A stretch of 33,492 nt of DNA from Solirubrobacteraceae bacterium (lineage in GTDB: Bacteria; Actinomycetota; Thermoleophilia; Solirubrobacterales; Solirubrobacteraceae), in the NCBI GenBank assembly GCA_030681525.1, contig JAUXSD010000176.1:1-33492 (forward strand). Reading direction: 5' to 3'. The position numbers and the translations under genes are program-made. Below are positions 6,845 to 22,999 of the stretch, piece by piece. The first letter of the stretch is position 1; the number at the start of each line of letters is the position of its first letter. The notes beneath the pieces were generated by a model. It was not told the origin of the DNA. It saw only the letters and a program-made list of their open reading frames with translations, and made no database searches.

Positions 6845-8461
6845 GTGGTGGACAACGCCTGGATCGCCGACCGCCTGGAGGCGTTCGCGTCGCTGCTCGA
6901 TCTGGCCGACGCGAATCCGTACACGCCCCGCGCCTATCGCCGCGCGGCCGAGACGATCCGCGGCGCGGCGGTCCCGGTCGCAGGGCTGGTGCGGTCCGGG
7001 CGGGTGCGCCAGCTGCGCGGGATCGGCCCGGGGATCGAGGCCCGGCTGCGCGAGCTCGTGCAGACCGGCGAGATCGCCGAGCTTGCCGAGCTCGAGCGCG
7101 AGCTCTCGCCAGAGCTCGTCGGCCTCGGCCGCTACCTCGGGCTGTCGGCGACCCGCTCGCTGGAGATCGCGCGGGCGCTCGGCGTGCGGACGGCCGGCGA
7201 GCTGCGCGAGGCGGCGGCGGCCGGGCGGCTGCGGACCGTGCCGGGGATCGGGCCCAAGCGCGAGGGGCAGCTGCTCGACGCGCTCGCCCGCGAGGGCGAG
7301 CCGCGGCCGCGACGCGGCCTGCTGCTGAACCGCGCCTGGGAGCTGGTCGGAGGCGTGGCGGCCGCGCTCGGGGGCGAGGCGGCGGGCGACGTGCGGCGCT
7401 GGGAGGACTCCTGCGAGCACCTTGCGGTGGTCTGCGCCGCGCCGGATCCCGCGCCCGTGCTGGCGCATTTCGCCGCGCTGCCCCAGATCGTCGCGGTGCT
7501 GGAACAGGCCGAGCGGCGCGCCGTCGGGGTGACGGTCGAGGGCGTCCCGATCGAGCTCGTCGCCGCCGCGCCGCAGCGGTTCGGAACCGCCCTCCTGCGG
7601 GCGACGGGCCCGGCGGCGTACGTGGCGGCGCTCGAGCCGCTGCCGGACGGGCGAGACGAGCTGGCCGTGTACTCCGCGCTCGGCCTATCGTGGTGCCCGC
7701 CCGAGCTGCGCCAGGGGGCGTTTCGCGGCGAGCCGCCGCCGACCCTCGTCTCGCCGGCCGATGTGCGCGGCGACCTGCATTGCCACACGACGTGGTCGGA
7801 CGGGCGCGCGAGCGTCGAGGAGATGGGCCGCGCCGCGCGCGAGCGCGGCTACGACTACGTCGCGATCTGCGACCACACGCCGGCCGTCGGCGCCGTCCGT
7901 GGCCTGGACGCCGACGACGTTCGCCGCCAGGCCGAGGAGATCGCGGCGGCGAACGAGGCGCTGGCGCCGTTTCGCGTCCTGCGGGGGATCGAGTGCGACA
8001 TCCTCGCCGACGGGCGGCTCGACCTTCCCGACGACGTGCTGGCGCAGCTCGACTGGGTGCAGGCCAGCGTCCACGGCGGGCAGCGGATGGCCCGGCGAGA
8101 GATGACCGCGCGCGTCGAGGCCGCACTGCGCAACCCGCACGTGCGCTGCCTGAGCCATCCGACGGGGCGGATCATCGGCCGGCGGCCCGAGAACGCGCTG
8201 GACCTCGAGCGGGTGTTCGCGATCGCGCTCGAGGAGGGCGTCGCGATCGAGGTCAACGGGCTCGCGCCGAGGCTCGACCTCAGCGGCGAGCACGTCCGCG
8301 ACGCGATCCGGGCCGGCGTGCGGATCGTCTGCTCGACCGATGCGCACTCGGTCCGCGGCCTCGAGAACATGGAGTTCGCGGTGCGGACCGCGCGCCGCGG
8401 CTGGGCGACGACCGCCGACGTGCTCAACACCGGCCCGCTCTCGGCGATCCTCAGATCCTGA
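6845..8461 (+). CDS. PolX-like PHP exonuclease/phosphoesterase with degenerate polymerase domain
   Basis: About 538 residues from GTG 6845 (a GTG at 6848 is equivalent; GGGG lies at 6832). The family X order is kept: helix-hairpin-helix (about 10-90, IGPGIEARLREL and VPGIGPKREGQL), a nucleotidyltransferase-like middle, then a PHP domain. The PHP metal ligands are intact: DLHCHTTWSDG with His312 and His314, ICDHT, GIECDI, ASVHGG, CLSHPTG and CSTDAHS. In the palm, the GS-x-RR...DxD pattern of active PolX is replaced by AGDVRRWEDSCEHLAVV (from residue 180), and the third acidic position reads IEL, so the polymerase metal site appears lost. I expect a 3'-5' exonuclease or AP-site phosphodiesterase without synthesis. 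Family members usually serve base-excision repair. Confidence 0.85.
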   Translation: MVDNAWIADRLEAFASLLDLADANPYTPRAYRRAAETIRGAAVPVAGLVRSGRVRQLRGIGPGIEARLRELVQTGEIAELAELERELSPELVGLGRYLGLSATRSLEIARALGVRTAGELREAAAAGRLRTVPGIGPKREGQLLDALAREGEPRPRRGLLLNRAWELVGGVAAALGGEAAGDVRRWEDSCEHLAVVCAAPDPAPVLAHFAALPQIVAVLEQAERRAVGVTVEGVPIELVAAAPQRFGTALLRATGPAAYVAALEPLPDGRDELAVYSALGLSWCPPELRQGAFRGEPPPTLVSPADVRGDLHCHTTWSDGRASVEEMGRAARERGYDYVAICDHTPAVGAVRGLDADDVRRQAEEIAAANEALAPFRVLRGIECDILADGRLDLPDDVLAQLDWVQASVHGGQRMARREMTARVEAALRNPHVRCLSHPTGRIIGRRPENALDLERVFAIALEEGVAIEVNGLAPRLDLSGEHVRDAIRAGVRIVCSTDAHSVRGLENMEFAVRTARRGWATTADVLNTGPLSAILRS

Positions 8462-8580
8462 GGCGGCGATCGCCCGGCATTGCCGAGGTGCGCGAACCGC
8501 ACACCCAGGGTGGCTTCCCTTCGGCGCCCCCATGGCCGACCCTGTGGTCAACAGCACGTGAACTGACCCCAGGAGTTCCC

Positions 8581-9426
8581 ATGACCCCCCTCAAGACCGT
8601 CAACCTCGGCGCCGCGCTCGCGGCGCTCGTGCTCGGGACGCTCGGCGCGGGCAGCGCCGCCGCCGACGCGACCATCAACCCCGACCCGACCGCGCAGAAC
8701 GTCACCGCCTACGGCTCGAGTGCCGCGTGGTCGCGCAAGGCGGCCGACGGCTACCACCTCGTCGTCGCCCACGGCGGGATCGTCGCCGACGCGCCGGTCC
8801 CGGCCTCCCCCACCCCCTACGACCCCGACATGGGGCCGACGAAGGCCAACGGCCGGGCGATCGTCTACGCCCGCGGCGGTGACCTGTACCGCTACGACGC
8901 CGGCGCCGCCGGCGAGCGGAAGCTCGCCGACCTGTCGAGCTCGGCCAACGAGATCGCGCCGTCGATCTTCAAGGACACGATCGTCTTCAGCCGCACGAAC
9001 GGCAGGCGCCCGGGCACGTACCTGCTGCGCCCCAAGCGCACGCTGACGCGCGTCTTCCGGACCGTGGCGCGCGAGACCGACGTCGCCGAGACCCGCATCA
9101 TCGGCCGCTACGGCACCGGCCGCAAGTCGATCATCCGCATCATGAACATGAACGCCGAGGACGTGAAGGTCGTCGCGCGCGCCAAGACCGGCCAGCGCGT
9201 GACGAGCCCCACGCTGACGCGCTTCAACGGCATCTGGCTACGTGTCGGCCCGACCTCCTCGACGGTCGAGCAGGTCGGCGTCAACGCGCACCGCGGCCTC
9301 GACGTGCTGACCGCCGACCGGTCGCTGCCCGGGCAGGTCGGCTCGCTGGCCAGCTACCGGATCCCGACGCTCTACACCAACGAAAGCGGCGTCCGGCGCA
9401 TCGACCCGAAGTTGAAGCTCAGCTGA
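8581..9426 (+). CDS. exported protein of unknown function, beta-propeller-like
   Basis: 281-residue exported protein. ATG 8581 follows AGGAG with five bases between and opens onto a clear signal peptide (LGAALAALVLGTLGAGSAAA, cleavage near AAA-DA). The mature part has repeating strand patterns (WSRKAADGYHLVV, GRAIVYARGGDLYRYD, KDTIVFSRTNGRRPGTYLL) reminiscent of TolB/WD-type beta-propeller blades, but too few and too diverged to name a family. It ends at a strong hairpin shared with the convergent histidine kinase. It is common in this lineage as a lone exported protein; no substrate or partner can be inferred. Confidence 0.7.
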   Translation: MTPLKTVNLGAALAALVLGTLGAGSAAADATINPDPTAQNVTAYGSSAAWSRKAADGYHLVVAHGGIVADAPVPASPTPYDPDMGPTKANGRAIVYARGGDLYRYDAGAAGERKLADLSSSANEIAPSIFKDTIVFSRTNGRRPGTYLLRPKRTLTRVFRTVARETDVAETRIIGRYGTGRKSIIRIMNMNAEDVKVVARAKTGQRVTSPTLTRFNGIWLRVGPTSSTVEQVGVNAHRGLDVLTADRSLPGQVGSLASYRIPTLYTNESGVRRIDPKLKLS

Positions 9427-9432
9427 CCGCAC

Positions 9433-9456
9433 CGCCGCGGCCCTCGGGCCGCGGCG
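9433..9456. terminator. bidirectional terminator hairpin
   Basis: A perfect 11-bp inverted repeat with a TC loop (CGCCGCGGCCC / GGGCCGCGGCG) occupies the gap between the convergent exported-protein and kinase genes. There is no T-tract on either side, as is usual in high-GC actinobacteria, so its role as terminator rests on position and stem strength. Confidence 0.6.
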
Positions 9457-9458
9457 AC

Positions 9459-11327
9459 TCACTTCCGCGGGACGGGTGACGCCGGCAGCGTGAAGGAGAA
9501 GGTGGCGCCCGCGCCCGCTGGGCTCTGCGCCCAGATGCGCCCGCCGTGCAGCTCGACGATCGCGCGGCAGATCGTGAGCCCGAGGCCGCTGCCGCCCTTC
9601 TCACGTGAGTCGGACGCATCGACCTGCTCGAAGCGCTCGAAGATCGCGTCGATCTTGTGCGGCGGGACGCCCGGGCCCTCGTCGCTGACCTCGAAGAGCA
9701 CGTCGCCGTCGCGGGCCTGAACGCCGACGGCGACGATCATGCCCGGTTCGGAGAACTTGATGGCGTTGGCGATCAGGTTCGTCAGCGTCTGGATGATGCG
9801 GTCGGCATCAGCGAGGACCGCGCTCGGCTGGGTCCGCGTCACGAGCGTGACGTTCGCCGCCTCGGCCGTCGTCGTCAGCCCCGCGGCGGCGTGCCTCACG
9901 AGTTGCGCGGCGTCGCAGGATCCTGCGCTCAACGTGGCCGAGCCGGAGCTGAGGTGGTCGACGTCGAGGATGTCGTTGATCAGGCGCACGACCCGGTCGG
10001 TGTTCTGCACGGCGATCTCGATCATGCGCCGGGCCTTCTCAGGCGACGCGCTCAGGGCTCCGCTCTCCAGCAGACCGAGCGAGCCGCGGATCGAGGCCAG
10101 CGGCGTGCGCAGCTCGTGGCTGACCACCGAGGTCAGCTCGTCCATGGCGCGCTCGACCGCTCGGCGGTCGCTGATGTCCCTGAAGACGACCACAGCGCCG
10201 GTGATGGCGCCGTGCTCGAGCAGCGGCGTGCTCGTGTACTCGACGGCAAAGCAGGTGCCGTCCCTGCGCCAGAAGACGTCGCGATCGCAGCGATGCACGG
10301 CGCCGTCGCGAAGGGAGGCCAGAATCGGGCTGTCCTGCGCGGCGTACGGCGTCCCGTCCGACCGGGTGTGCTGGAACGTCGCATGCAGATCGCGTCCCCG
10401 CATCTCCTCGATGTCCTGGCCCATCAAGCGCAGCGCAGCGGGGTTCGCGAACGTCACGGTCCCGTCGAGGCTCAGCCCGCAGAGGCCGTCTCCAGCGCAG
10501 TTCAGCGCCGCCTCGTTGCCACGGCTGGCCCGGTCCGGTCGCTGCCGGGCCTGTACGGCGTCGGTGACGTCCTGCACCGTTCCGACGAGCCGCACGACAT
10601 CCCCGGCATCGTCGACGATGGACCGCGACCGCAGCTCCGTGATGCGCTCGGCACCGTCCGGGCGCACCACCCTGTGCGTCAGCAGCATGGGCGCTGCGTC
10701 CTCCAGTGCGGCCTTGGCGAGCACCTGCATCTGCGCTCTGTCCTCGGGATGGACGAGCGTGAAGTAGGTCTCGCACGTCGGCGTGAAGGTCGCGGAGTCG
10801 ACGCCGAAGATGCGGTACAGGTTCGCGGACCACGGCACCTGGTCGGAAATGACGTCCCACTCCCAGCTGCCCAGGCCGGCGATCTGCTCTGCTTCGGCTA
10901 GCTGCGCCTCACTCTTGCGCAGCCGCTCCTCGACGAGGGTCCGCAGCGTGATGTCGCGGGTGAACCCGGCCACCCCGATGATGGCTCCGCGCGAGTCTCT
11001 GACCGGCGCCAGGGAGATCGACACGTCGATGCGCCGGCCATCCTTCGCGATCCGCTGCGTCTCGACCTGGCTGACGGCTTCACCGGCGCTGGCCCGGCTG
11101 AGCAAGGCCGACGTCGCGTCCTGCAGCTCGGGTGGCACCAGCATCTGCAGCGGCGCCCCCAGCGCCTCCTGCGCCGGATATCCGTACAAGCGCTCCGCCG
11201 CCGGGTTCCAGTCGATGATGACTCCCTCGGGCGTCAGTACGATCGCCGGATCCGGCGAAGCTTGCACGAACCCCGCGCTGCGCCGCAACGCCGCGAGATC
11301 GTCTGACACGCTGAACACCCGTCCCAT
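9459..11327 (-). CDS. soluble histidine kinase with three PAS domains
   Basis: 622-residue sensor kinase with no membrane segment. PAS 1 is at about 15-130 (PDPAIVLTPEGVIIDWNPAA), PAS 2 of the PAS_3 fold at 150-265 (LGSWEWDVISDQVPWS, HPEDRAQM), and PAS 3 at 270-385 (GDGLCGLSLDGTVTFANPAA). HisKA follows with VVSHELRTPLASIRG and phosphoacceptor His404, then HATPase_c with NLIANAIKFS, DEGPGVPPHK and GSGLGLTICRAIVELHGG. The PAS 3-HisKA-HATPase part is closely similar to the hybrid kinase at 18148, so the two are paralogues. No response regulator is adjacent; the receivers at 20300-23745 are candidates. PAS 1 and 2 could hold a small ligand or flavin, but no cysteine photoadduct motif (NCRFLQ) is present. 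Confidence 0.9.
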   Translation of the reverse strand: MGRVFSVSDDLAALRRSAGFVQASPDPAIVLTPEGVIIDWNPAAERLYGYPAQEALGAPLQMLVPPELQDATSALLSRASAGEAVSQVETQRIAKDGRRIDVSISLAPVRDSRGAIIGVAGFTRDITLRTLVEERLRKSEAQLAEAEQIAGLGSWEWDVISDQVPWSANLYRIFGVDSATFTPTCETYFTLVHPEDRAQMQVLAKAALEDAAPMLLTHRVVRPDGAERITELRSRSIVDDAGDVVRLVGTVQDVTDAVQARQRPDRASRGNEAALNCAGDGLCGLSLDGTVTFANPAALRLMGQDIEEMRGRDLHATFQHTRSDGTPYAAQDSPILASLRDGAVHRCDRDVFWRRDGTCFAVEYTSTPLLEHGAITGAVVVFRDISDRRAVERAMDELTSVVSHELRTPLASIRGSLGLLESGALSASPEKARRMIEIAVQNTDRVVRLINDILDVDHLSSGSATLSAGSCDAAQLVRHAAAGLTTTAEAANVTLVTRTQPSAVLADADRIIQTLTNLIANAIKFSEPGMIVAVGVQARDGDVLFEVSDEGPGVPPHKIDAIFERFEQVDASDSREKGGSGLGLTICRAIVELHGGRIWAQSPAGAGATFSFTLPASPVPRK

Positions 11328-13464: not shown

Positions 13465-14631
13465 TCACGCGGGTGGCGCCGTGGTGAACGTCAGCGTGCT
13501 GCTGAAGGTCCCGGCGGCCGCATCGGCCGGGATGACGATCCCCAGGCTCTTCTCCAGGCCGGTGTCTGCGGGAAAGACCCATTCGCCCTGGCCGCCGCCC
13601 GGGGCGACGCCGGCGATCGTCGCGGCGGTTGGGCCCAGCGGCTGGGCGCCCGCCGGTACCGGGGCCGGCGATGCGGCGTTGCCGGGCGCCGCCGTGGGCG
13701 CACGCGGGGTCAGCGTCAGCCCCGCGCCGCTGCCGGCGGCGGCGACGGAGCCCCCGACCGTCGGAGCGGTGGCGCTGACGGTCACGAGGTAGCCCGCACC
13801 GCTGCCCCGCGTGTCGACCACGCTCCAGGCGCCGACCGCAGCGTGCACGGTCCGCGTCACGCCCGTGAGCGTCGCCGCGAAAGGACTGATCGCCGGGGCG
13901 GTGTTCGAGAGCGAGCCCGCGGGGCACGGCGGCGGCACGGTGACGGTGTTGTTGTCCAGCGTGACGGCGCCGTCGCGCGCGAGCGCACGCCCGTGAATGG
14001 TGACGCCGGCCCCCACGGTGATCGAGGTGTGGGCCAGGATCGAGCCCCGCAACAGCGAGCTGGCGCCCAGCGTCGCGGAGCTTCCCACCTGCCAGAACAC
14101 GTTGCAGGCCTGCGCGCCGCCCGTCAGCGAGACCTGGCTGCCGGCCGCGGTGCCGAGCGTGGAGCCCGCCTGCAGGATGAAGATGGCGTTCGGATCACCA
14201 AAGGCGTCGAGCGTCAGCGTCCCGGCGAGCGTCAGCGTCGACCCGGAGGCGTGCACCCCGGGGCCGAGCGTCAGGCCGTCGAGAGCGCCGACCGCGGGCT
14301 GATCGGGGGTCCGCGCCACGGCGACGGCGTACGCCGTCGCGAGGTCCGCGTGCGCCTGCGCGGCGAGGGAGTCATTGGCGTGTATCGAACCGCCGGTGAC
14401 CGTGCCGGGCCCGAAGCCCGTCACCGCCGTTCCGGGGCTCACGCCGAGGTCGCCGGTGATCGTCGACACGCCGGCGCTGGTCACCGTCGTGGCGCCCAGC
14501 ACCGCGAACGATTGCGCCGCGCCGAGATCGATCCGGGCCGCGGCGTGCGCGCCCGGCGCGCCGAACGCGAGTGAGGCGAGCGTCGCCAGCGCGGCGATGC
14601 CCTGCGAGTACCGGCCGTGCGCGCGATACAT
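13465..14631 (-). CDS. secreted DUF3494 (ice-binding/adhesin-like) protein with C-terminal WxL-like domain
   Basis: 388 residues from ATG 14631 (GGAGGG just upstream). Signal peptide (GIAALATLASLAFGAPGAHA), then a DUF3494 beta-solenoid at about 33-245 with the family landmarks SFAVLGATTVTSAG, ITGDLGVSPGTAVTGF, GTLTLDAFGDPNAIFILQ, ACNVFWQVGSSATLGA and GRALARDGAVTLDNNTV. The final ~140 residues are a WxL-like domain (GAWSVVDTRG, GEWVFPADTG, GTFSSTLTFT) paralogous to the next gene. DUF3494 proteins bind ice in psychrophiles but many are likely adhesins; here the WxL-like part would attach it to the wall. It is upstream of the riboswitch, so it has its own promoter in 14632-14849. Confidence 0.85.
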   Translation of the reverse strand: MYRAHGRYSQGIAALATLASLAFGAPGAHAAARIDLGAAQSFAVLGATTVTSAGVSTITGDLGVSPGTAVTGFGPGTVTGGSIHANDSLAAQAHADLATAYAVAVARTPDQPAVGALDGLTLGPGVHASGSTLTLAGTLTLDAFGDPNAIFILQAGSTLGTAAGSQVSLTGGAQACNVFWQVGSSATLGASSLLRGSILAHTSITVGAGVTIHGRALARDGAVTLDNNTVTVPPPCPAGSLSNTAPAISPFAATLTGVTRTVHAAVGAWSVVDTRGSGAGYLVTVSATAPTVGGSVAAAGSGAGLTLTPRAPTAAPGNAASPAPVPAGAQPLGPTAATIAGVAPGGGQGEWVFPADTGLEKSLGIVIPADAAAGTFSSTLTFTTAPPA

Positions 14632-14777
14632 GGACCCTCCGTGGTTGAGTAGCGGCCCGCCGCACGACGCCCGCCGCGTGACGCCACCCCGTGCGTGGAC
14701 TCGCCTGGTCGCTGCGTAGCCGTCGATCCAGCAGCGGCGGCTCACATGGTGTATCGGCAGGTGGAGGCAGGACGGTC

Positions 14778-14793
14778 TACCCCCAGCCGGGTA
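14778..14793. repeat. dyad TACCC-N6-GGGTA, copy 2
   Basis: Same inverted repeat as 13440-13455, spacer CCAGCC, in the divergent region between the DUF3494 gene and the PAS fragment. A plausible -10 (TACACT, 14816-14821) for the plus strand lies 23 bases further on, which places the dyad at about the -35 edge, where activators or repressors bind. Confidence 0.4.
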
Positions 14794-14849
14794 TTTCGTC
14801 TGACACAAACCGGATTACACTGCTCAGAACCAGCCCTGGGACGGGCACC

Positions 14850-15170: not shown

Positions 15171-15215
15171 ACCAACGCCGATAATGAACGTGTGGCCATC
15201 GATGGCGATACGTGA
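15156..15215 (+). CDS. 19-codon leader ORF overlapping the EAL gene
   Basis: ATG 15156 reads MVHAPTNADNERVAIDGDT and stops at TGA 15213-15215, which overlaps the GTG start of the EAL gene (GTGA). Its residues align with the first residues of the hybrid kinase (MADAPSDVDADQV): M-x-x-AP-x-x-x-D-x-x-x-V. The stop-start overlap suggests translational coupling, so ribosomes on this ORF would deliver translation to EAL, which has no good Shine-Dalgarno. It could also be the orphaned N-terminus of a kinase-like gene. Confidence 0.5.
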   Translation: MVHAPTNADNERVAIDGDT

Positions 15216-16012
15216 ACGCCCCTGAACCCCCCCACGACCGCCCGCATCACGAGCTGCTCGCACTGCTCAGAGCTGCGATCGACGGAGACGGATTCGTGCT
15301 GTGCGCGCAGCCCGTCATCGATCTCGCCACCGGCGAGGTGGTCAAGCACGAGTTCACGCTCCTCCTGCGGGCCCCCGAGGGCGACCTGATCCCGTCGAGC
15401 AAGTTTCTGCCCGTCGCGGATCGATTCGGCCTGACCGGGGAGGTCGACGATGTGCTCATCCGGTCGGCAGCCGGCGCAGCCCGTGATGGAGACCCCGTCG
15501 CGCTCGACGTGCAGGCCGGATCCGTCTCGGACCCCGACCTCGCGCGCAGGACCGAGCAGGCGATGGCGCAGGCCGGCGCCGCCCCGGGCCTGGTCACCTT
15601 CGAGCTCTCCGAGGACTGCCTCACGGCCAACGTGCCGGCGGCGTCCGCGTTTCTGGTGCGCATGCACGAGCTGGGGTGCACCATCACCGGCGACCAGTTC
15701 GGGACCGGCTCGGCCGGATTCGGCTATCTCAAGCAGCTGCCGCTCGACTGCCTGAAGATCGACGCCTGCTTCATCGAGGACCTGCCGTGGACGCCCTCCG
15801 ACGAGCAGTTCGTCCGCGCATTCGTCGGGCTCGCGCACGGCCTGGGGCTCACCGCAGCGGCCGAGGGCGTCATCGACGACGCGGCCCGCGAGGTCTTGGA
15901 GGACGCGGGCGTCGAAGAGGCCCAGGGCCCGCTCTTCGGCGACCCCGAGGCCGTGACCGAGGACGGCATCACGAGCCTGCAGCCCACGCGCAGCGCTCCC
16001 GAGCTGTCCTGA
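15212..16012 (+). CDS. EAL-domain protein, probably catalytically inactive
   Basis: 266 residues, a single EAL domain. Family landmarks: AQPVIDLATGEVVKHEFTLLLR (split: AQPVIDLATG, HEFTLLLR) with Glu47 in EFT instead of EAL; FELSED with Glu131; GDQFGTG with Asp161 but Gln162 in place of the second Asp of DDFGTG; LKID with Lys182; AAEGV with Glu218; and Gln239. The Asn of the usual vNxS strand is Asp99 (ALDVQAG). Loss of the Asn and of one metal Asp makes c-di-GMP hydrolysis unlikely; it may bind c-di-GMP or a protein partner. It starts at GTG 15212 inside the leader-ORF stop and ends 6 bases before the B12-GGDEF gene, so the two are probably made together. Confidence 0.85.
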   Translation: MNAPEPPHDRPHHELLALLRAAIDGDGFVLCAQPVIDLATGEVVKHEFTLLLRAPEGDLIPSSKFLPVADRFGLTGEVDDVLIRSAAGAARDGDPVALDVQAGSVSDPDLARRTEQAMAQAGAAPGLVTFELSEDCLTANVPAASAFLVRMHELGCTITGDQFGTGSAGFGYLKQLPLDCLKIDACFIEDLPWTPSDEQFVRAFVGLAHGLGLTAAAEGVIDDAAREVLEDAGVEEAQGPLFGDPEAVTEDGITSLQPTRSAPELS

Positions 16013-16018
16013 CCGGCG

Positions 16019-17371
16019 ATGACTCGGGACCCCGCTCACGGAGCGGCGCACACCGATGCGCCGATCCTGTCACGCCGGTACGGCGACGCGCTGCGCGTCG
16101 CGCAGACCTCCGCCGCGGAGCAGGTCGTCGACGACGCCCTGGCCGCCGGGCTGGCCCCGGCGGTGATCCAGTCGCTGATCATCGAGCCGGCGATGGAGCG
16201 CATCGGACGGCTCTGGGAGGCCAACGCGATCACGGTCGCCGACGAGCACCTCGCCACGGCCGTCAGCCAGTCGGTGCTCGTCAAGCTGTTCGATCGTCTC
16301 ACGGTCGCGCGCCCGCGCTCGCGCGAGCGCGTCCTGCTGGCCGCGGTGGAGGGCCAGCATCACGTGCTCGGGCTGCGGATGATCGCCGACGTCATGGAGG
16401 GCGCCGGCTTCGACGTGCTCTACCTCGGCGCCGACGTACCGGTCGACGCCCTGCGTCGCTTCGCCGGCGAGCACCGGCCCTCGATCACCGGCCTCGCCTT
16501 CGCCATCAGCGTCGGTGTGGGGGTGCTCGCCGAATCCATCCACGCGGTGCACGAGGCCTGTCCCGGCACGCGGATCATGCTCGGCGGGCGCGCGGTCCCG
16601 GCGGGCCTCGTCGATGCGGGATACACGCGGGTCGACAACAGCATGGAGGTGCTGCTTGTCGCCGAGCGCCTGCTGCGCCACGCGCCCGGGCTGCCCGATC
16701 GCGTGCTCCTGCAACTGCTGCGCCCGGCGCGCCACGAGCCCCGCAGGTGGCGGGAGGTCGCGCACGAGTCAGACGCCGTCGCCGAGCGCATGGCCGAGGT
16801 CACGGAAGGTGCGACGTCGATGGCGCGCGACTACGTCCGCCGCGCCGCCGCATCCAAAGGCTCTCCCTTCCGCGACCCGGTCACGGATCTCGGCAGCCGC
16901 CGCGCCTTCGACGACCGGATGCACGCACCGCGATCCGCTCGAGATGGGGCGGGTGGAGCCCTGCTGATGATCGACGTCGACGGGTTCAAGGCGATCAACG
17001 ACACCCACGGCCACGCTGCCGGCGACGGGCTTCTGCGCCGCATCGGCGTGATCGCCACCCAGGCGCTGGGCAGCCACGACTTCGTCGCCCGTATCGGTGG
17101 CGACGAGTTCGCGGTCCTGCTCGACTCGGCGACGCGTGACGAGGCGCAGGTGATCGCCGAGGTGATCGCGCGGACGGTCGCCGCGGACCGCCACATGCCG
17201 GTGACGGTGAGCATCGGCCTTGCCCCGCTGCAGAACAGCCCGCGCGCCACGGTGCTTGCCGCCCGCATCGCGCTGCACCAGGCCAAGGCCGCCGGTCGCA
17301 ACGGCGTCAGCGAACCCGTCGGCGCAGCCCAGCCCGTGGCCGATGCCCGCGCGCCCAAGGTCGTTGCCTGA
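16019..17371 (+). CDS. B12-binding (CarH-type) - GGDEF fusion: candidate light/cobalamin-controlled diguanylate cyclase
   Basis: 450 residues. Residues 20-95 form the helical B12-binding_2 cap with Trp66, Glu76 and His77 in exact W-x9-E-H spacing, the signature of CarH-type photoreceptors, where these residues surround the adenosyl group. Residues 100-225 are a Rossmann B12-binding domain: VEGQHHVLG with His115 in the D/E-x-H-x-x-G position (Asp is Gln113), LYLGADVP and MLGGRAVP. A linker leads to a GGDEF domain from 285: DPVTDLGSRRAF, MIDVDGFKAINDTHGH, IGGDEFAVLL (Gly360-Phe364 intact) and VTVSIGLAPL. The inhibitory RxxD site is absent (G351-S-H-D354). The predicted reaction is 2 GTP to c-di-GMP, controlled by adenosylcobalamin and possibly light. 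The ABM gene begins immediately at its stop. Confidence 0.9.
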   Translation: MTRDPAHGAAHTDAPILSRRYGDALRVAQTSAAEQVVDDALAAGLAPAVIQSLIIEPAMERIGRLWEANAITVADEHLATAVSQSVLVKLFDRLTVARPRSRERVLLAAVEGQHHVLGLRMIADVMEGAGFDVLYLGADVPVDALRRFAGEHRPSITGLAFAISVGVGVLAESIHAVHEACPGTRIMLGGRAVPAGLVDAGYTRVDNSMEVLLVAERLLRHAPGLPDRVLLQLLRPARHEPRRWREVAHESDAVAERMAEVTEGATSMARDYVRRAAASKGSPFRDPVTDLGSRRAFDDRMHAPRSARDGAGGALLMIDVDGFKAINDTHGHAAGDGLLRRIGVIATQALGSHDFVARIGGDEFAVLLDSATRDEAQVIAEVIARTVAADRHMPVTVSIGLAPLQNSPRATVLAARIALHQAKAAGRNGVSEPVGAAQPVADARAPKVVA

Positions 17372-17680
17372 ATGTACGTCTCGATGTCGCGCCTGGCGAT
17401 CCCCGCCGAACGAGCCTCCGAGCTCGTCGATGCCTTTCGCGGCAGGGCGCATCTCGCCGACGAGGCCGATGGCTTCATCGACCTGCAGGTGTGGCAGTCC
17501 GACCGCGATCTCGGCGACATCCTCATGGTCAGCCGGTGGCGCGACCGCAGTGCGTTCACGGCCTACATGAAGAGCGCCGCACACCAGGTCTCGCACGATC
17601 GCATCGACCCCGGCCTCAAGCAGGACATCGCGCTCAAGCGCCTGGACCACCTGCACACCTACGAGGTGGTGGCCGAATGA
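17372..17680 (+). CDS. ABM-fold (antibiotic biosynthesis monooxygenase-like) protein
   Basis: 102 residues, start directly abutting the upstream TGA (TGAATG). It has the dimeric ferredoxin-like ABM pattern: MYVSMSRLAIP, DGFIDLQVWQSDRD, ILMVSRWRDRSAFTAYMKS and a HxxSH segment. ABM relatives include quinone-forming monooxygenases and IsdG/MhuD heme-degrading enzymes; the W...F...H pattern is compatible with heme binding, but the decisive Asn is not evident, so I do not assign a reaction. Its position immediately after a tetrapyrrole-binding cyclase is suggestive only. It overlaps the next gene by ATGA. Confidence 0.75.
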   Translation: MYVSMSRLAIPAERASELVDAFRGRAHLADEADGFIDLQVWQSDRDLGDILMVSRWRDRSAFTAYMKSAAHQVSHDRIDPGLKQDIALKRLDHLHTYEVVAE

Positions 17681-18087
17681 GCCCGCGCCCGCCCAGCGGG
17701 ACCCCGCCCCCGGTCCTCGCCGAGCTCGGCGGGCAGCCCGTCGACCTCGCGGCCCTGGCGGTCGAGATCTGCAACCGCTACCACGCCCACTACCCCGACG
17801 AGGAGGCGCGGCACGGCCCGGCCGGGCAGGCGTGGTGTCGCCACGACAACCAGTGGCTGCTGTCGTGGGCGGTCGGCGACGTCCAGGGCGTGACCGACCT
17901 CGACGAGCAGGCGCGCTGGCTGGCGCGCGTGCTGCAAGCCCGTGACTTCCCGGTCGAACGCCTGGCGCACGACCTGCGGCTGGCCGGGGAGGTCGCGCGC
18001 GCGGCTCTCGGTGGCGACGAGGGCAAGGCCCTCGACGATGTCCTGCGGCGGGCGGCGCTCGCGGTGTCGTCCCTGGTCCTCGCGTGA
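17677..18087 (+). CDS. unknown conserved-looking helical protein in the c-di-GMP run
   Basis: 136 residues; ATG 17677 overlaps the previous stop (ATGA). I do not recognise a family. After a Pro-rich start it has ICNRYHAHYPDEEARHG, a compact AWCRHDNQWLLSWAVGD motif rich in Trp, His and Cys, WLARVLQARDFPVERLAHDLR, and a long C-terminal amphipathic helix pair ending SSLVLA. No signal peptide or membrane helix is visible. Strict coupling to the B12-GGDEF and ABM genes suggests a partner or effector of the cyclase. The W/H/C motif could bind a metal or tetrapyrrole; that is inference. Confidence 0.6.
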   Translation: MSPRPPSGTPPPVLAELGGQPVDLAALAVEICNRYHAHYPDEEARHGPAGQAWCRHDNQWLLSWAVGDVQGVTDLDEQARWLARVLQARDFPVERLAHDLRLAGEVARAALGGDEGKALDDVLRRAALAVSSLVLA

Positions 18088-18116: not shown

Positions 18117-18162
18117 ACACGTTTCAAGAAGATCGGGCATCTGACGGATGGCCGACGCGCCA
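18117..18162 (+). repeat. 46-base repeat, copy 2 (start of the hybrid kinase)
   Basis: Partner of 15125-15170 (35/46 identical). It covers the 31 bases before the kinase ATG and its first five codons. No Shine-Dalgarno lies at proper distance before ATG 18148, so the conserved block may be a promoter giving a leaderless or short-leader mRNA. Confidence 0.6.
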
Positions 18163-21075
18163 TCGGATGTCGACGCTGATCAAGTGCGACCAACTGGCAA
18201 ACCCGCCGTGCTGACACCACGCCCGCCGCCCCAGGGCGCGAGCAGCCACTTCTCGCTGGCCTCGTCTCCCCCGCTCGTGCAGTGGGCGGTGCGGCTGCTG
18301 TGGACACTCGGGCTCACCGCCCTCGCCGTCTCCACGCTCGCCGCGACCGGCGGGCCGGCTCTTCCCATCGACTACGAGCTGCTGTACGTGTTGCTGCTCC
18401 TCATCCCCGGGACGATCTGCCTCGTGCGGGCGGTCGTGATCGCCGAGCAGCGTCTGACCTGGGCGGCGTTCGGCGTCGGGATGTGGTGCTTCGGAGCCGG
18501 ATCGGCCTACTGGTATTTCGTCGTTGCGGCGATGCAGAGCCCGCCGTACCCGTCCGCCAGCGACGCGCTCTGGCTGGGGTACTACGCCGGCGGGCTGGTC
18601 GGCCTCGCGGCGCTCATCCGGTCGAGCCTGACGCAGTTTCGCCGGAGGATCTCGATCGACCTCCTGGTCGGGGCGATGGCCACCGCCACCGTGGCGACGG
18701 CGCTGCTGCTGCAGCCGATCTCCGAGCTCACCGGCGGGGATCTCGGCTCTGTCGCGACGAACCTGGCCTATGCCCTGATCGACGCGGTGATCGTCAGCCT
18801 GATCCTCGGCGTGTTCATCATCCACGGCTGGAGGCCGGGCGGGGTCTGGGTGCCACTCGCCGTCGTCTGGATCCTGCAGACCGTGGCCGACACGCTGCAG
18901 CTCGCCCAGGTGGCCGACGGGACCTATGTCGTCGGCGGGCTGCTGGATGCGACCTGGCCGGCCCTGATGTTCCTGATCGCGTGGGCCGCCTGGCAGGGGC
19001 CGGCACGCGCGCAGCCCGTGTGGGAACACGGTCCGGTCAGGGTCGCCGTCACCATCACCATCGCCGCGGTCGGCCTGTTGGTGCTCATCTACGACCTGGT
19101 GCACGAGGTCGGCGTGATCGCCAGCGTCCTCGTGGCGCTGACCGTGACGCTCGGCTTCATCCGCGCGTCGATGACCTTCGCCGACATGCGGTCGCTGGCC
19201 GCCACCCGCCAGAAACAACGCTCGTTGATCCTGGACGCGGCCGGCGAGGGCATCGTCGGTACCGACTCAACCGGCGTCGTCACGTTCATGAACCCCGCCG
19301 GCAAGCGCATGACGGGATACGCGCCCGGCGAGATGACCGGCCAGCCGCTGCACGCGCTGCTGCACCACACCAAGGCCGATGGCAGCCCGTATCCCGTCGA
19401 GGAGTGCCCGATGCACGCCTCGCTGCTGGACGGCACGATCCACCACTGCGATGAAGACGTCTACTGGCGCAAGGACGGAACATCCTTCCCCATCGAGTAC
19501 ACCAGCACGCCGATCGTTGAGGACGGGCGCATCCACGGGGCCGTCGTCGTGTTCCACGACGTCACCGAGCGGCGCAACGTCGAGCGCATCAGGGACGAGT
19601 TCACGTCCGTCGTCAGCCACGAGCTCCGTACGCCGCTGACGTCGATCCGCGGGTCGCTGGGCCTGCTCGAGAGCGGCGTCCTCGGACCGCTGCCCGAGCG
19701 GGCGCAGCGGATGACCCAGATCGCCGTCGACAACACCGATCGCCTGGTCCGCCTGATCAACGACATCCTCGACCTCGAGCGCCTCGACTCCGAAGGGCTG
19801 CAGTTGCGCGCGTCGACCTGCGATGCCGAGCAGCTCATCGCGCGCGCCACGGAGGGCATCCTGTCGGCGGCCGTCGCGGCGGACGTCACGCTCGCCGTCG
19901 ACACCGGCCCCGCAACGTTCGAGGCCGATGCCGACCGGGTCATCCAGACGCTGACGAACCTCATCGGCAACGCGGTGAAGTTCTCACCCCGCGGCGGGAC
20001 CGTGCAGATCAGCTCCGTGCGCCGCAGCGAGGAGATCCTCTTCACGGTCCGCGACACCGGGCGCGGCATCGCCGCCGACCAGCTCGAGTCGATCTTCGGC
20101 CGCTTCCAGCAGATCGACTCGACGGACTCGCGCCAGAGCGGCGGCACCGGGCTCGGCCTCGCCATCTGCCGCTCGATCGTCGATTTGCACGGCGGGCGCA
20201 TCTGGGCGCGCAGCATCGTGGGCGAGGGCAGCACGTTCTCCTTTGTCGTGCCCGCCGCGGACGAGCCGGTCAGCGCGTACAGGCCGCGCGGCGGCGGCAC
20301 GCGTGGATCGGTCCTCATGTGCGACGAGAATGCCGACATCCTGGAGATCACCGGGACGATGCTCGAGGAGCGCGGCTACCACGTGATCGCCGCCCATTCC
20401 GGCGATCGCGCGGTTGATCGCGCGCGCGCCGAGCACCCGGACGTGATCCTGCTCGACGTCCAGTTGCCGGGCTCGAGCTGGGCTCAGACGGTCGCGGCGC
20501 TGCGCGCGCACGGCGAGACCCACTCCATACCGATCGTCGTGCTCAGCGTCCTTCCCCGCTTCGATGAGCAGATGGCCGCCGGCGTGTTCGTGGACTGGAT
20601 CGAGATGCCTGCCCACCCCGACGAGCTTGTCGCCGCGCTGGACCGCGCGATCGGCTCGGCCGACGACGTGTTCCGGGCGCTGTTCATCGAGCGCGACCCG
20701 GCGGTCGCCGAACTGTTGCGCGCCCTGTTCGCCCGCCACGGCGTCGCGGCCTTCGGGGCGGACGACGGGCGGCAGGCGCTCGCGATCTGCGGGAAGATCC
20801 GGCCGGACCTGCTCTTGCTCGACGACGACCTGCCGGCGATCGACGGCCTGGACATCAAGAGCTGGCTGCGCGAGCAGCCGACCTTCGGCGCGCTGCCGAT
20901 GGTCGCCTACGACGCCCGGCACCTCGAGGCCGCCGAGGACCAACGCCGATCCGCGGGGGCCGTCACCCAGATCCTCACGAAGGGCCAGATCAGCGCCGAG
21001 GAGTTTCAGTGGCGCGTGATGACGTTGCTGGCTCGCCCACACACCCCCAGCCGGAACGGCGGAGACGAGCCATGA
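18148..21075 (+). CDS. membrane hybrid histidine kinase (multi-TM, PAS, HisKA, HATPase, REC, REC)
   Basis: 975 residues. About 45-345 is a membrane domain of eight or nine hydrophobic helices (ALIDAVIVSLILGVFIIHGW is one) with a PSASDALWLGYYAG loop, of a type seen in actinobacterial signalling proteins. PAS follows (ILDAAGEGIVGTDSTGVVTF), then VVSHELRTPLTSIRG with His491, NLIGNAVKFS, DTGRGIAADQ and GGTGLGLAICRSIVDLHGG. REC 1 has Asp770 in ILLDVQLPG but its Lys position reads IEMPAHP, so it is probably impaired; REC 2 has Asp892 in LLLLDDDLPA. The start is set by the repeat block. It overlaps the CheY-like gene by ATGA and begins a tightly coupled phosphorelay. It is a close paralogue of the kinase at 9459-11327 from the third PAS onward. 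Confidence 0.9.
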   Translation: MADAPSDVDADQVRPTGKPAVLTPRPPPQGASSHFSLASSPPLVQWAVRLLWTLGLTALAVSTLAATGGPALPIDYELLYVLLLLIPGTICLVRAVVIAEQRLTWAAFGVGMWCFGAGSAYWYFVVAAMQSPPYPSASDALWLGYYAGGLVGLAALIRSSLTQFRRRISIDLLVGAMATATVATALLLQPISELTGGDLGSVATNLAYALIDAVIVSLILGVFIIHGWRPGGVWVPLAVVWILQTVADTLQLAQVADGTYVVGGLLDATWPALMFLIAWAAWQGPARAQPVWEHGPVRVAVTITIAAVGLLVLIYDLVHEVGVIASVLVALTVTLGFIRASMTFADMRSLAATRQKQRSLILDAAGEGIVGTDSTGVVTFMNPAGKRMTGYAPGEMTGQPLHALLHHTKADGSPYPVEECPMHASLLDGTIHHCDEDVYWRKDGTSFPIEYTSTPIVEDGRIHGAVVVFHDVTERRNVERIRDEFTSVVSHELRTPLTSIRGSLGLLESGVLGPLPERAQRMTQIAVDNTDRLVRLINDILDLERLDSEGLQLRASTCDAEQLIARATEGILSAAVAADVTLAVDTGPATFEADADRVIQTLTNLIGNAVKFSPRGGTVQISSVRRSEEILFTVRDTGRGIAADQLESIFGRFQQIDSTDSRQSGGTGLGLAICRSIVDLHGGRIWARSIVGEGSTFSFVVPAADEPVSAYRPRGGGTRGSVLMCDENADILEITGTMLEERGYHVIAAHSGDRAVDRARAEHPDVILLDVQLPGSSWAQTVAALRAHGETHSIPIVVLSVLPRFDEQMAAGVFVDWIEMPAHPDELVAALDRAIGSADDVFRALFIERDPAVAELLRALFARHGVAAFGADDGRQALAICGKIRPDLLLLDDDLPAIDGLDIKSWLREQPTFGALPMVAYDARHLEAAEDQRRSAGAVTQILTKGQISAEEFQWRVMTLLARPHTPSRNGGDEP

Positions 21076-21461
21076 GCCCGAAGCACATCCTGCTCGTCGA
21101 TGACGAAGACGACATCCGCGAGGTGGCGGCGCTGAGCCTCGAGGCCGTCGGCGGCTGGCGCGTGTCGAGCGCGTGCGACGGCGCCAGCGGCGTCGTCATG
21201 GCCCGCGCGGAGCGGCCCGACGCGATCCTGCTCGACGTCATGATGCCCGGCCTCGACGGCCCGGCGACGGTGGCGCGACTGCGGGAGGACCCGCTGACGC
21301 GTGACATCCCGGTGATCCTGCTCACGGCAAAGGCGCAGACCAGCGACCACCGGCGCTTCGCGGCACTCGGCGTCGCCGGGACGCTCACCAAGCCCTTTGA
21401 CCCCATGACGCTCACCGATCAGATAGCGGCCATTCTCGACCGCGAGAGGCAATCCACATGA
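21072..21461 (+). CDS. single-domain response regulator (CheY/DivK-like)
   Basis: 129 residues, receiver only: ILLVDDEDDIREV, Asp55 in AILLDVMMPG, the Thr in VILLTAKAQ and Lys in LTKPFDP are all present, so it should be phosphorylatable. With no output domain it is a phosphate shuttle or sink. It lies between the hybrid kinase and the Hpt-REC-HD-GYP gene, with ATGA overlaps on both sides, so relay to the Hpt domain is the natural reading. Confidence 0.9.
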   Translation: MSPKHILLVDDEDDIREVAALSLEAVGGWRVSSACDGASGVVMARAERPDAILLDVMMPGLDGPATVARLREDPLTRDIPVILLTAKAQTSDHRRFAALGVAGTLTKPFDPMTLTDQIAAILDRERQST

Positions 21462-22999
21462 GCGACGTATCCGCCGGCCTGGGCAAGATCTTCCGGGCGC
21501 ACAAGCACGACTTCGACCAGCGTGTCGCGACCGTCGAGGGCGCGGTGGAGGCGATCGCGGCCGGAACCCTCGATCACGCGCTGCGCGCCAGCGCCGAGCG
21601 CGATGCCCACAAGCTGGCGGGCTCGCTCGGCACCTTCGGGCTGCAGCGCGGCACGGAGCTGGCGCGCGAGCTCGAGACGACATTCGCGGCCGGGCGCACG
21701 CCGGTGGATGCCGTCGAGGGGCTCCACCTGTCGGACTGCGTCGCGGCACTGCGCGGCGAGCTCGACAGCGAGCTGGCCAGGTTGGAGGGGGGTGCGAGCC
21801 TGCCCGCGTTCTCCACCCGCGCGGCGCCCGCCGCGCCGGCCGCGCCGCCGGCTGTCGGGCGCGACGAGGCCGCACTGCAGAGGTTGCGCCGCGGCACCTT
21901 CGAAACCGGCATGGCCGGAACGGACCGGGCGGCAGACAGCGCCGGCCTGATCGTCGTCGTCGACGACGACGAGGCCGTGCGCGACATGCTGGTCGGCATG
22001 CTCGGCGAGGCGGGCTATGAGGTGCGCGGGGTCGGCAGCGCACGTGAGGCCCGCTACGCGCTGGAGAACGAGCAGGTCTCGCTGCTGCTCAGCGACGTGG
22101 CCATGCCGGGCGAGACTGGCCTCGACCTCATCCGCTTCGCGCTGTGCGAGCACCCGGGAACCGCGACGCTGTTGATCAGCGCCCTGGAGGACCCGGGGAT
22201 CGCGCAAGTCGCGATGGACTTCGGCGCCTACGGCTACCTCAGCAAGCCCGTCCGTCGCTCCGCCGTCCTGATCGGCGTGATGACCGCGCTGCGCCGGCGC
22301 GACGTCGAGGCGCGCGAGCGCACGGCGCGCCTGAGCCTCGAGGACAACCTCCGGCTGCGCACCAGCGCGCTCACCGAGACGCTGGAGCAACTCGAGGGCG
22401 CTGCCGCACAGGGGCGCGTGCTGCAGGGCGAGACGATCCACCGCTGGGCCCAGTCGGCGGAGTACCGCGATCCCGGCATCGGTCGCCACCTCAAGCGCGT
22501 CGGGCACTACTGCGCGGTGCTGGGCCAGAAGCTCGGGCTGCACGGCGAGTCGATGGAGCTCGCCAGCGTGCTACACGACGTCGGCAAGGTCGCGATCCCC
22601 GACAGCATCCTCTTGAAGGCCGGCCCGCTGACGGCGGACGAACGGCTGGCGATCGAGACGCACCCCGCCGTCGGCTACGAGATGTTGCATGGCTCGAGCA
22701 GCGGGCTGCTCGATCTGGCGGCGATGATCGCCAAGACCCACCACGAGAAGTTCGACGGCAGCGGCTATCCCTCCGCGCTGTCGGGAACGGAGATCCCCCT
22801 CGAGGGGCGCATCGCCGCTGTCGCCGACGTCTTCGACGCGCTGACCTCCGACCGCGGATACCGCCTGGCCTGGTCGCTGGAGACGACGGTCGCTTGGATG
22901 CAGCGCGAGAGTGGAAAGCACTTCGACCCGGACGTCCTCGGCACGTTCCTGGACTCCATGGACGAGATCCGCTCCATCCGATCGCTGCTGTCGCGATGA
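21458..22999 (+). CDS. Hpt - REC - HD-GYP c-di-GMP phosphodiesterase
   Basis: 513 residues. Residues 1-110 look like an Hpt bundle with His51 in DAHKLAGSLGTFG. A receiver follows at about 165-285 (VVVVDDDEAVRDM, Asp213 in LLLSDVAMPG, YLSKPV). A coiled linker leads to an HD-GYP domain at 325-505: LHDVGKVAIPD with His373/Asp374, THPAVGYEML, AKTHHEKFDGSGYP with Gly436-Tyr437-Pro438, and VADVFDALTSDR. All metal and GYP residues are present, so it should hydrolyse c-di-GMP under phosphorylation control. An internal Hpt on the same chain as REC is uncommon and would let the protein take phosphate from the kinase receivers. ATGA overlaps at both ends. Confidence 0.9.
   Translation: MSDVSAGLGKIFRAHKHDFDQRVATVEGAVEAIAAGTLDHALRASAERDAHKLAGSLGTFGLQRGTELARELETTFAAGRTPVDAVEGLHLSDCVAALRGELDSELARLEGGASLPAFSTRAAPAAPAAPPAVGRDEAALQRLRRGTFETGMAGTDRAADSAGLIVVVDDDEAVRDMLVGMLGEAGYEVRGVGSAREARYALENEQVSLLLSDVAMPGETGLDLIRFALCEHPGTATLLISALEDPGIAQVAMDFGAYGYLSKPVRRSAVLIGVMTALRRRDVEARERTARLSLEDNLRLRTSALTETLEQLEGAAAQGRVLQGETIHRWAQSAEYRDPGIGRHLKRVGHYCAVLGQKLGLHGESMELASVLHDVGKVAIPDSILLKAGPLTADERLAIETHPAVGYEMLHGSSSGLLDLAAMIAKTHHEKFDGSGYPSALSGTEIPLEGRIAAVADVFDALTSDRGYRLAWSLETTVAWMQRESGKHFDPDVLGTFLDSMDEIRSIRSLLSR

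Follow-up and report, generated by a model that had tools for sequence, protein, structure and literature searches.

Genes at the locus

The window, by which we mean the whole 33,492-nucleotide stretch of Solirubrobacteraceae DNA under analysis, carries a tight run of forward-strand genes (Table 1) in the order EAL, B12-GGDEF, ABM and SML, the first two intergenic gaps being 6 and 0 bases and ABM overlapping SML by 4 bases. Just upstream, on the opposite strand (13465-14808), lies an ice-binding-like protein (Pfam E 2e-58), a relative of which is likewise found near the operon in G017, a genome of the same genus.

Table 1. Features of the gene run and its downstream neighbors.
Feature	Position	Strand	Basis or remark
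Stand-alone EAL-domain protein	15212..16012	+	Pfam EAL 4e-45; first gene of the tight run
B12-binding domain, linker and GGDEF	16019..17371	+	450 aa, ATG start
B12-binding_2 four-helix cap, residues 19-87	16073..16279	+	Carries G63xxW66 and E76-H77
B12-binding Rossmann part, residues 104-192	16328..16594	+	G112xxH115 (cobalt ligand position), G137xxxP141
Predicted 36-residue helix, residues 244-279, sensor-cyclase linker	16748..16855	+	AlphaFold2 model, low confidence
GGDEF domain, residues 285-428	16871..17302	+	GGDEF 360-364 at 17096-17110, without RxxD I-site
ABM-fold protein, 102 aa	17372..17680	+	Pfam ABM 9e-15
SML, stand-alone phycobiliprotein/photoglobin-type globin, 136 aa	17677..18087	+	C54-R-H-D57 at 17836-17847
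Hybrid PAS histidine kinase with receiver domains, candidate operon member	18148..21075	+	Pfam; 60 bases after SML
Hpt-receiver-HD_5 protein with HHE...GSGYP stretch	21458..22999	+	Pfam and sequence; same strand, putative link

The first gene was aligned with the EAL domain of MorA (4rni), and its presumed catalytic, metal-binding set is partly altered. The alignment shows the Glu of the EAL motif retained (as EFT), and loss of this glutamate was accordingly rejected. An Asn is replaced by Asp, and DDFG reads DQFG, the second Asp having become Gln; these two changes make the phosphodiesterase activity of the protein doubtful. The HHE...GSGYP stretch in the protein at 21458-22999 is presumably of HD-GYP type, so that the protein carrying it is probably an HD-GYP protein and a possible c-di-GMP phosphodiesterase near the cyclase.

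Sensor and cyclase domains

The Pfam matches of the 450-residue protein (GGDEF, E 3e-30; B12-binding, 9e-14; B12-binding_2, 1e-11) all exceed their curated cut-offs and lie far beyond chance; the GC content at third codon positions of its gene is 0.90. A sequence-only reading of this DNA had picked out W66, E76, H77, H115 and G118 in the B12 part and a GGDEF motif at 360-364 free of the inhibitory RxxD, and in the translated reading frame every one of these residues is where it was claimed to be. The W-x9-EH pattern occurs once, at residue 66, and the GGDEF is the sole GG[DE][DE]F in the protein, giving the intact GG(D/E)EF expected of a diguanylate cyclase. The I-site position (351-354) reads GSHD, and RxxD is found elsewhere only at residues 20 and 295. 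To that earlier list we add G63-x-x-W66, G112-x-x-H115 and G137-x-x-x-P141. Light-responsive B12 domains are described, in the portion of PMC11796333 consulted, by the elements GxxW, EH, GxxH and GxxxP, and the window protein possesses all four of these CarH-class elements. Its B12 part has its closest relative among solved chains in the photocobilin SasPcob rather than in CarH. Between sensor and cyclase the AlphaFold2 model is poor, with block means of pLDDT of 47-72 over residues 244-279 and values below 50 at 238-247.

The same domain pair, for which the sequence-only reading had proposed a wider search, is present in order (in some cases in pieces) in at least 7 of 145 other genomes of the family and in the groundwater actinobacterial locus L054, which makes eight relatives. 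Six of the eight have an intact GGDEF, including the broken G017 gene and that of G089, which is interrupted and contains ambiguous bases. Three observations count against our preferred reading of the locus, set out below: the active site is degenerate in two relatives, Patulibacter americanus with GGDAF and G062 with GGGQF; one of the eight, L027 (5602-7167 (-)), carries Gln in place of the cobalt-ligand His; and in G017 (L032/L058) EAL and B12-GGDEF are broken and ABM and SML kept. RxxD is present in six of seven relatives, G017 being left out; the Patulibacter protein lacks it, as does that of the window. A set of 299 genomes spread evenly over the class gave 8 matches at E 1e-30 or better, the window's own included. 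Of the other seven, G197 and G121 match over a single stretch that spans the two domains, G017 matches in pieces, and the remaining four match over the B12 part only, so the fusion is rare. G005, considered as another such fusion, was rejected, as its B12 protein has no GGDEF. A plasmid search returned 0 records spanning 80% of the query.

A free-standing globin

Single-sequence search of the PDB, a 14-sequence profile (A1), Pfam and NCBIfam all gave nothing useful for SML. Only a 37-sequence profile (A4) revealed its relation to the phycobiliproteins and photoglobins, a fold that the structure model also shows. The C54-R-H-D57 stretch occupies the phycobilin-attachment position and has the Cys-x-x-Asp arrangement; across A4 this Asp is found in 37/37 sequences, and the Cys position is Cys in 18/37 and Thr in 19/37.

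The modeled B12 part aligns over residues 12-236 with SasPcob 7-227, and SML over 15-136 with SasPcob 229-345, so that the two genes tile one photocobilin. Both folds of a photocobilin, the B12 domain and the phycobiliprotein-type globin, are thus in the same gene run, and the globin is encoded separately (17677-18087) rather than in one chain with the B12 domain.

The ABM-fold protein and tetrapyrrole supply

In the PDB the ABM protein matches 1iuj best (2e-18), then 8avh, MhuD, HmoB and IsdG; it resembles proteins of the IsdG/HmuQ/TT1380 kind, and its NCBIfam match to HmuQ has an E of 1.4e-8 but scores 35 bits against a cut-off of 130. The parts of PMC5557675 available to us give the IsdG-type catalytic triad as Asn-Trp-His and name staphylobilin and mycobilin, among others, rather than biliverdin, as products of such enzymes. 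With the triad placed on our alignment (A6) by reading, the cassette ABM keeps one of the three residues, the His: Ser6 is found in 12/12 sequences, the Trp position is Tyr in 6/12 (Tyr65 in the window) and Trp in 6/12, and His75 is found in 12/12. We therefore rejected the ABM protein as a proven heme oxygenase. An HO-1-type heme oxygenase was not found in the window's genome (95% complete, 5% contaminated, 352 contigs), and this, together with an ABM that retains only the His, leaves the source of a bilin as a point against our preferred reading.

A second ABM, MhuD/IsdG-like and with Asn, Trp and His kept as judged by eye, lies on contig C42 of G000 (L033:3434-3751 (-)), about 2 kb or less from the CarH-like MerR-B12 gene, which is on the opposite strand (L033:4692-6359 (+)); the 10-kb stretch of C42 around it contains no SML. 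Given this triad-bearing protein, the tetrapyrrole might come from a source besides the cassette ABM. For the window's genome, a PduO-type cobalamin adenosyltransferase together with the CarH-like MerR-B12 gene makes the use of adenosylcobalamin (AdoCbl) plausible.

Recurrence of the gene set

With the B12 alignment A3 as query, a profile search of genome contigs found 400 relatives, the best 80 of which served as loci. At 38/80 of these loci SML lies no more than 1.5 kb from the B12 gene, and the corresponding counts are 37/80 for ABM and 35/80 for both; all 39 SML and all 37 ABM matches in the 80 loci fall within that distance. The count of 38 is partly circular, since 36 of the same 80 loci, together with the window, supplied the sequences of A4. 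Profile A1, made from Solirubrobacteraceae sequences only, detects SML at 24 of the 80, again always within 1.5 kb; 3 of its 14 rows (G000, G017 and G062) recur in or beside these loci. Several entries are the same DNA under two names (L053 and G121, L054 and G197, L055 and G111, L056 and G089, L057 and L061 with G062, L058 and G017, L062 and G019, L065 and G178, L077 and G082, L109 and G138).

The set extends to Bacillota and Gemmatimonadota, and many of the 80 loci are from Bacillota, in the order ABM-SML-B12. At three of the Bacillota loci L068-L131 (L068, L111 and L124) these genes are followed by a protein of ~250-260 aa, which in L111 is weakly STAS/PAS-like (STAS E 0.014, below the cut-off); judged from such sequences, the set in Bacillaceae is possibly a stressosome-linked B12 light sensor. 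In a Gemmatimonadaceae MAG two SML-like matches stand in tandem just after a B12 gene (L117:2531-3949 and downstream). In L054, a groundwater actinobacterium MAG, B12-GGDEF-ABM forms one reading frame of 635 aa (7857-9761), with SML at 9767-10147, and L171 (7001-10468 (-)) encodes a PAS-GGDEF-EAL-B12 protein followed by ABM and SML, a second c-di-GMP output on the cassette.

In the order to which the window belongs, 17 of 232 genomes contain SML, at 19 places in all; with its confident fold, this led us to reject the idea that it is a chance reading frame. ABM is adjacent at 12 of the 19 places, and a B12 gene lies in the examined stretch at 11, several of the stretches ending at contig ends. 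These B12 genes are GGDEF-fused, MerR-fused (L175 and L176 by Pfam; L140, identical with L047, from the sequence), of the PAS-GGDEF-EAL type seen in L171, or without a recognised output; in G018 and G019, ABM and SML stand without a B12 gene.

A bolder reading, which we hold only tentatively, is that ABM, photoglobin and B12 protein make up a portable three-part, two-pigment light-sensing cassette with exchangeable outputs: GGDEF here, PAS-GGDEF-EAL or MerR in other Solirubrobacterales, and the weakly STAS/PAS-like downstream protein in bacilli. The tetrapyrrole, an unusual one rather than the biliverdin of HO-1, would be made by a dedicated ABM-fold protein or loaded by it onto a phycobiliprotein-like subunit encoded on its own, which would tune the B12 photoswitch and, here, c-di-GMP synthesis. 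In the parts of the photocobilin and photoglobin literature that we consulted, no ABM-photoglobin-B12 gene set was found described; a prior report of the split cassette may exist.

A proposed split photocobilin and its alternatives

By its sequence, the B12 part is probably a light sensor joined to a c-di-GMP-making enzyme. We put at roughly 55% the probability that the protein works as a split photocobilin, a diguanylate cyclase with an adenosylcobalamin photoreceptor. In the dark, the four-helix cap and the Rossmann part would enclose AdoCbl in its base-off form, with H115 below and W66 and E76-H77 packing above, and a head-to-tail dimer would keep the GGDEF domains poorly arranged. Green or blue light would break the Co-C bond, adenosine would leave, and the dimer interface around E76/H77 would rearrange; this change could reach the GGDEF pair through the linker (about residues 238-284), which may form a long helix, and so raise c-di-GMP. 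The sign of the effect, light on, is borrowed from the diguanylate cyclase photocobilin AbDPcob. SML would dock as a separate subunit on the B12 domain and, if bilin-bearing, extend the response towards red, and ABM might make, load or otherwise handle its tetrapyrrole.

This reading draws on the complete signature, SasPcob as closest solved chain, the intact GGDEF, the fold and tiling of SML, the recurrence of the cassette, the L054 fusion and L171, the precedent of AbDPcob, and the PduO and CarH-like genes. The presence of a B12 gene at only 11 of the 19 SML places in the order counts against it, as does the low confidence of the linker helix.

The cyclase might instead follow whether AdoCbl, another cobalamin or none is bound, light having no role in the cell. 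Binding of AdoCbl alone lowers the activity of AbDPcob relative to the apo protein, according to the portion of PMC10979010 consulted, and B12 domains of the same fold do have non-light roles in methionine synthase and methyltransferase corrinoid proteins, which are among the weaker solved matches of the B12 part. The W/EH/GxxH/GxxxP set, however, is what separates light-responsive from other B12 domains in the consulted text of PMC11796333, and a phycobiliprotein-type globin in the operon makes little sense for pure cobalamin sensing; we consider such a dark sensor unlikely. It is also conceivable, though to our minds quite improbable, that the GGDEF domain responds to GTP or c-di-GMP, or binds protein, without working as a cyclase, and that the signal is carried by the EAL protein or by the histidine kinase downstream. 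The relatives with GGDAF and GGGQF, the altered residues of the neighboring EAL domain and the adjacency of the hybrid kinase would fit this, yet in the window motif and domain are intact (E 3e-30), and six of the eight two-domain relatives retain GGDEF, one of the six in the broken G017 gene.

The globin and ABM raise a separate question, as they could be a heme- or bilin-handling pair that merely sits beside B12 genes, leaving the B12-GGDEF protein on its own as a CarH-like green-light switch. That 8 of the 19 SML places show no B12 gene in the examined stretch (some ending at contig ends) speaks for such independence, as do the two genomes with ABM-SML alone and the survival of the pair in G017 beside a broken B12-GGDEF gene. 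It is opposed by the occurrence of both partners beside the B12 gene at 35 of 80 loci, in a spread that extends to Bacillota and Gemmatimonadota, by the in-frame ABM fusion of L054, and by the fusion of the same two folds in photocobilins, and we give this explanation a small share of the probability.

The split-photocobilin reading would tie a B12 light sensor to a second messenger governing surface life, and would present a known two-pigment photoreceptor cut in two, its pigments' domains on separate genes. With separate subunits, one protein could be supplied or withheld to tell the contribution of B12 from that of the bilin, and an optogenetic switch for c-di-GMP could be built in two parts. 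For a missing step in the supply or loading of bilin, the recurring ABM gene offers a concrete candidate.

Comparison with known systems

The sequence-only reading had described the protein as CarH-type. The domain and the full signature, which it shares with the light-dependent regulators CarH and CtMerR, bear this out in part; unlike these proteins, it has GGDEF in place of their MerR DNA-binding domain. Only 18 residues precede the B12 cap, with no HTH detected by Pfam. TtCarH has a His after the Trp (H132) and a bis-His light state, whereas the window protein has Glu67, and its nearest solved relative is not CarH. CtMerR, SasPcob and AbDPcob also have no His after the Trp, in the sections of PMC11796333 that we consulted, where diguanylate cyclases are among the outputs fused to light-responsive B12 domains.

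Nor does the same reading's main claim to novelty, that no enzyme of this kind had been characterised, survive: AbDPcob, from an Acidimicrobiaceae bacterium (sensor part PDB 8j2y), is a photocobilin-diguanylate cyclase in which, with AdoCbl alone, light raises the apparent kcat more than tenfold, as the consulted portion of PMC10979010 reports. The earlier observation was right and its interpretation half right, and there is less novelty than it claimed in the B12-GGDEF fusion and more in its surroundings. Here, as in AbDPcob, where light activation has been measured, an AdoCbl-type domain with W/EH/GxxH is coupled to a GGDEF cyclase. In AbDPcob, by the same partial source, the cyclase comes first, followed by the B12 domain and the bilin globin in one chain; in the window the cyclase is C-terminal and the globin a separate gene. 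SasPcob of Saccharothrix syringae (PDB 8j2w, 8j2x) is a stand-alone photocobilin, one chain without an output domain, and aligns a Thr with C54 of SML. The clusters of BBAG-2, pre-PcyA and B12 protein described in the consulted part of PMC10151467 also set a bilin-binding globin gene beside a B12-binding protein, together with tetrapyrrole enzymes; there the enzymes are HO and FDBR and the globin motif is RGMC, and in the window their counterparts are an ABM-fold protein and CRHD.
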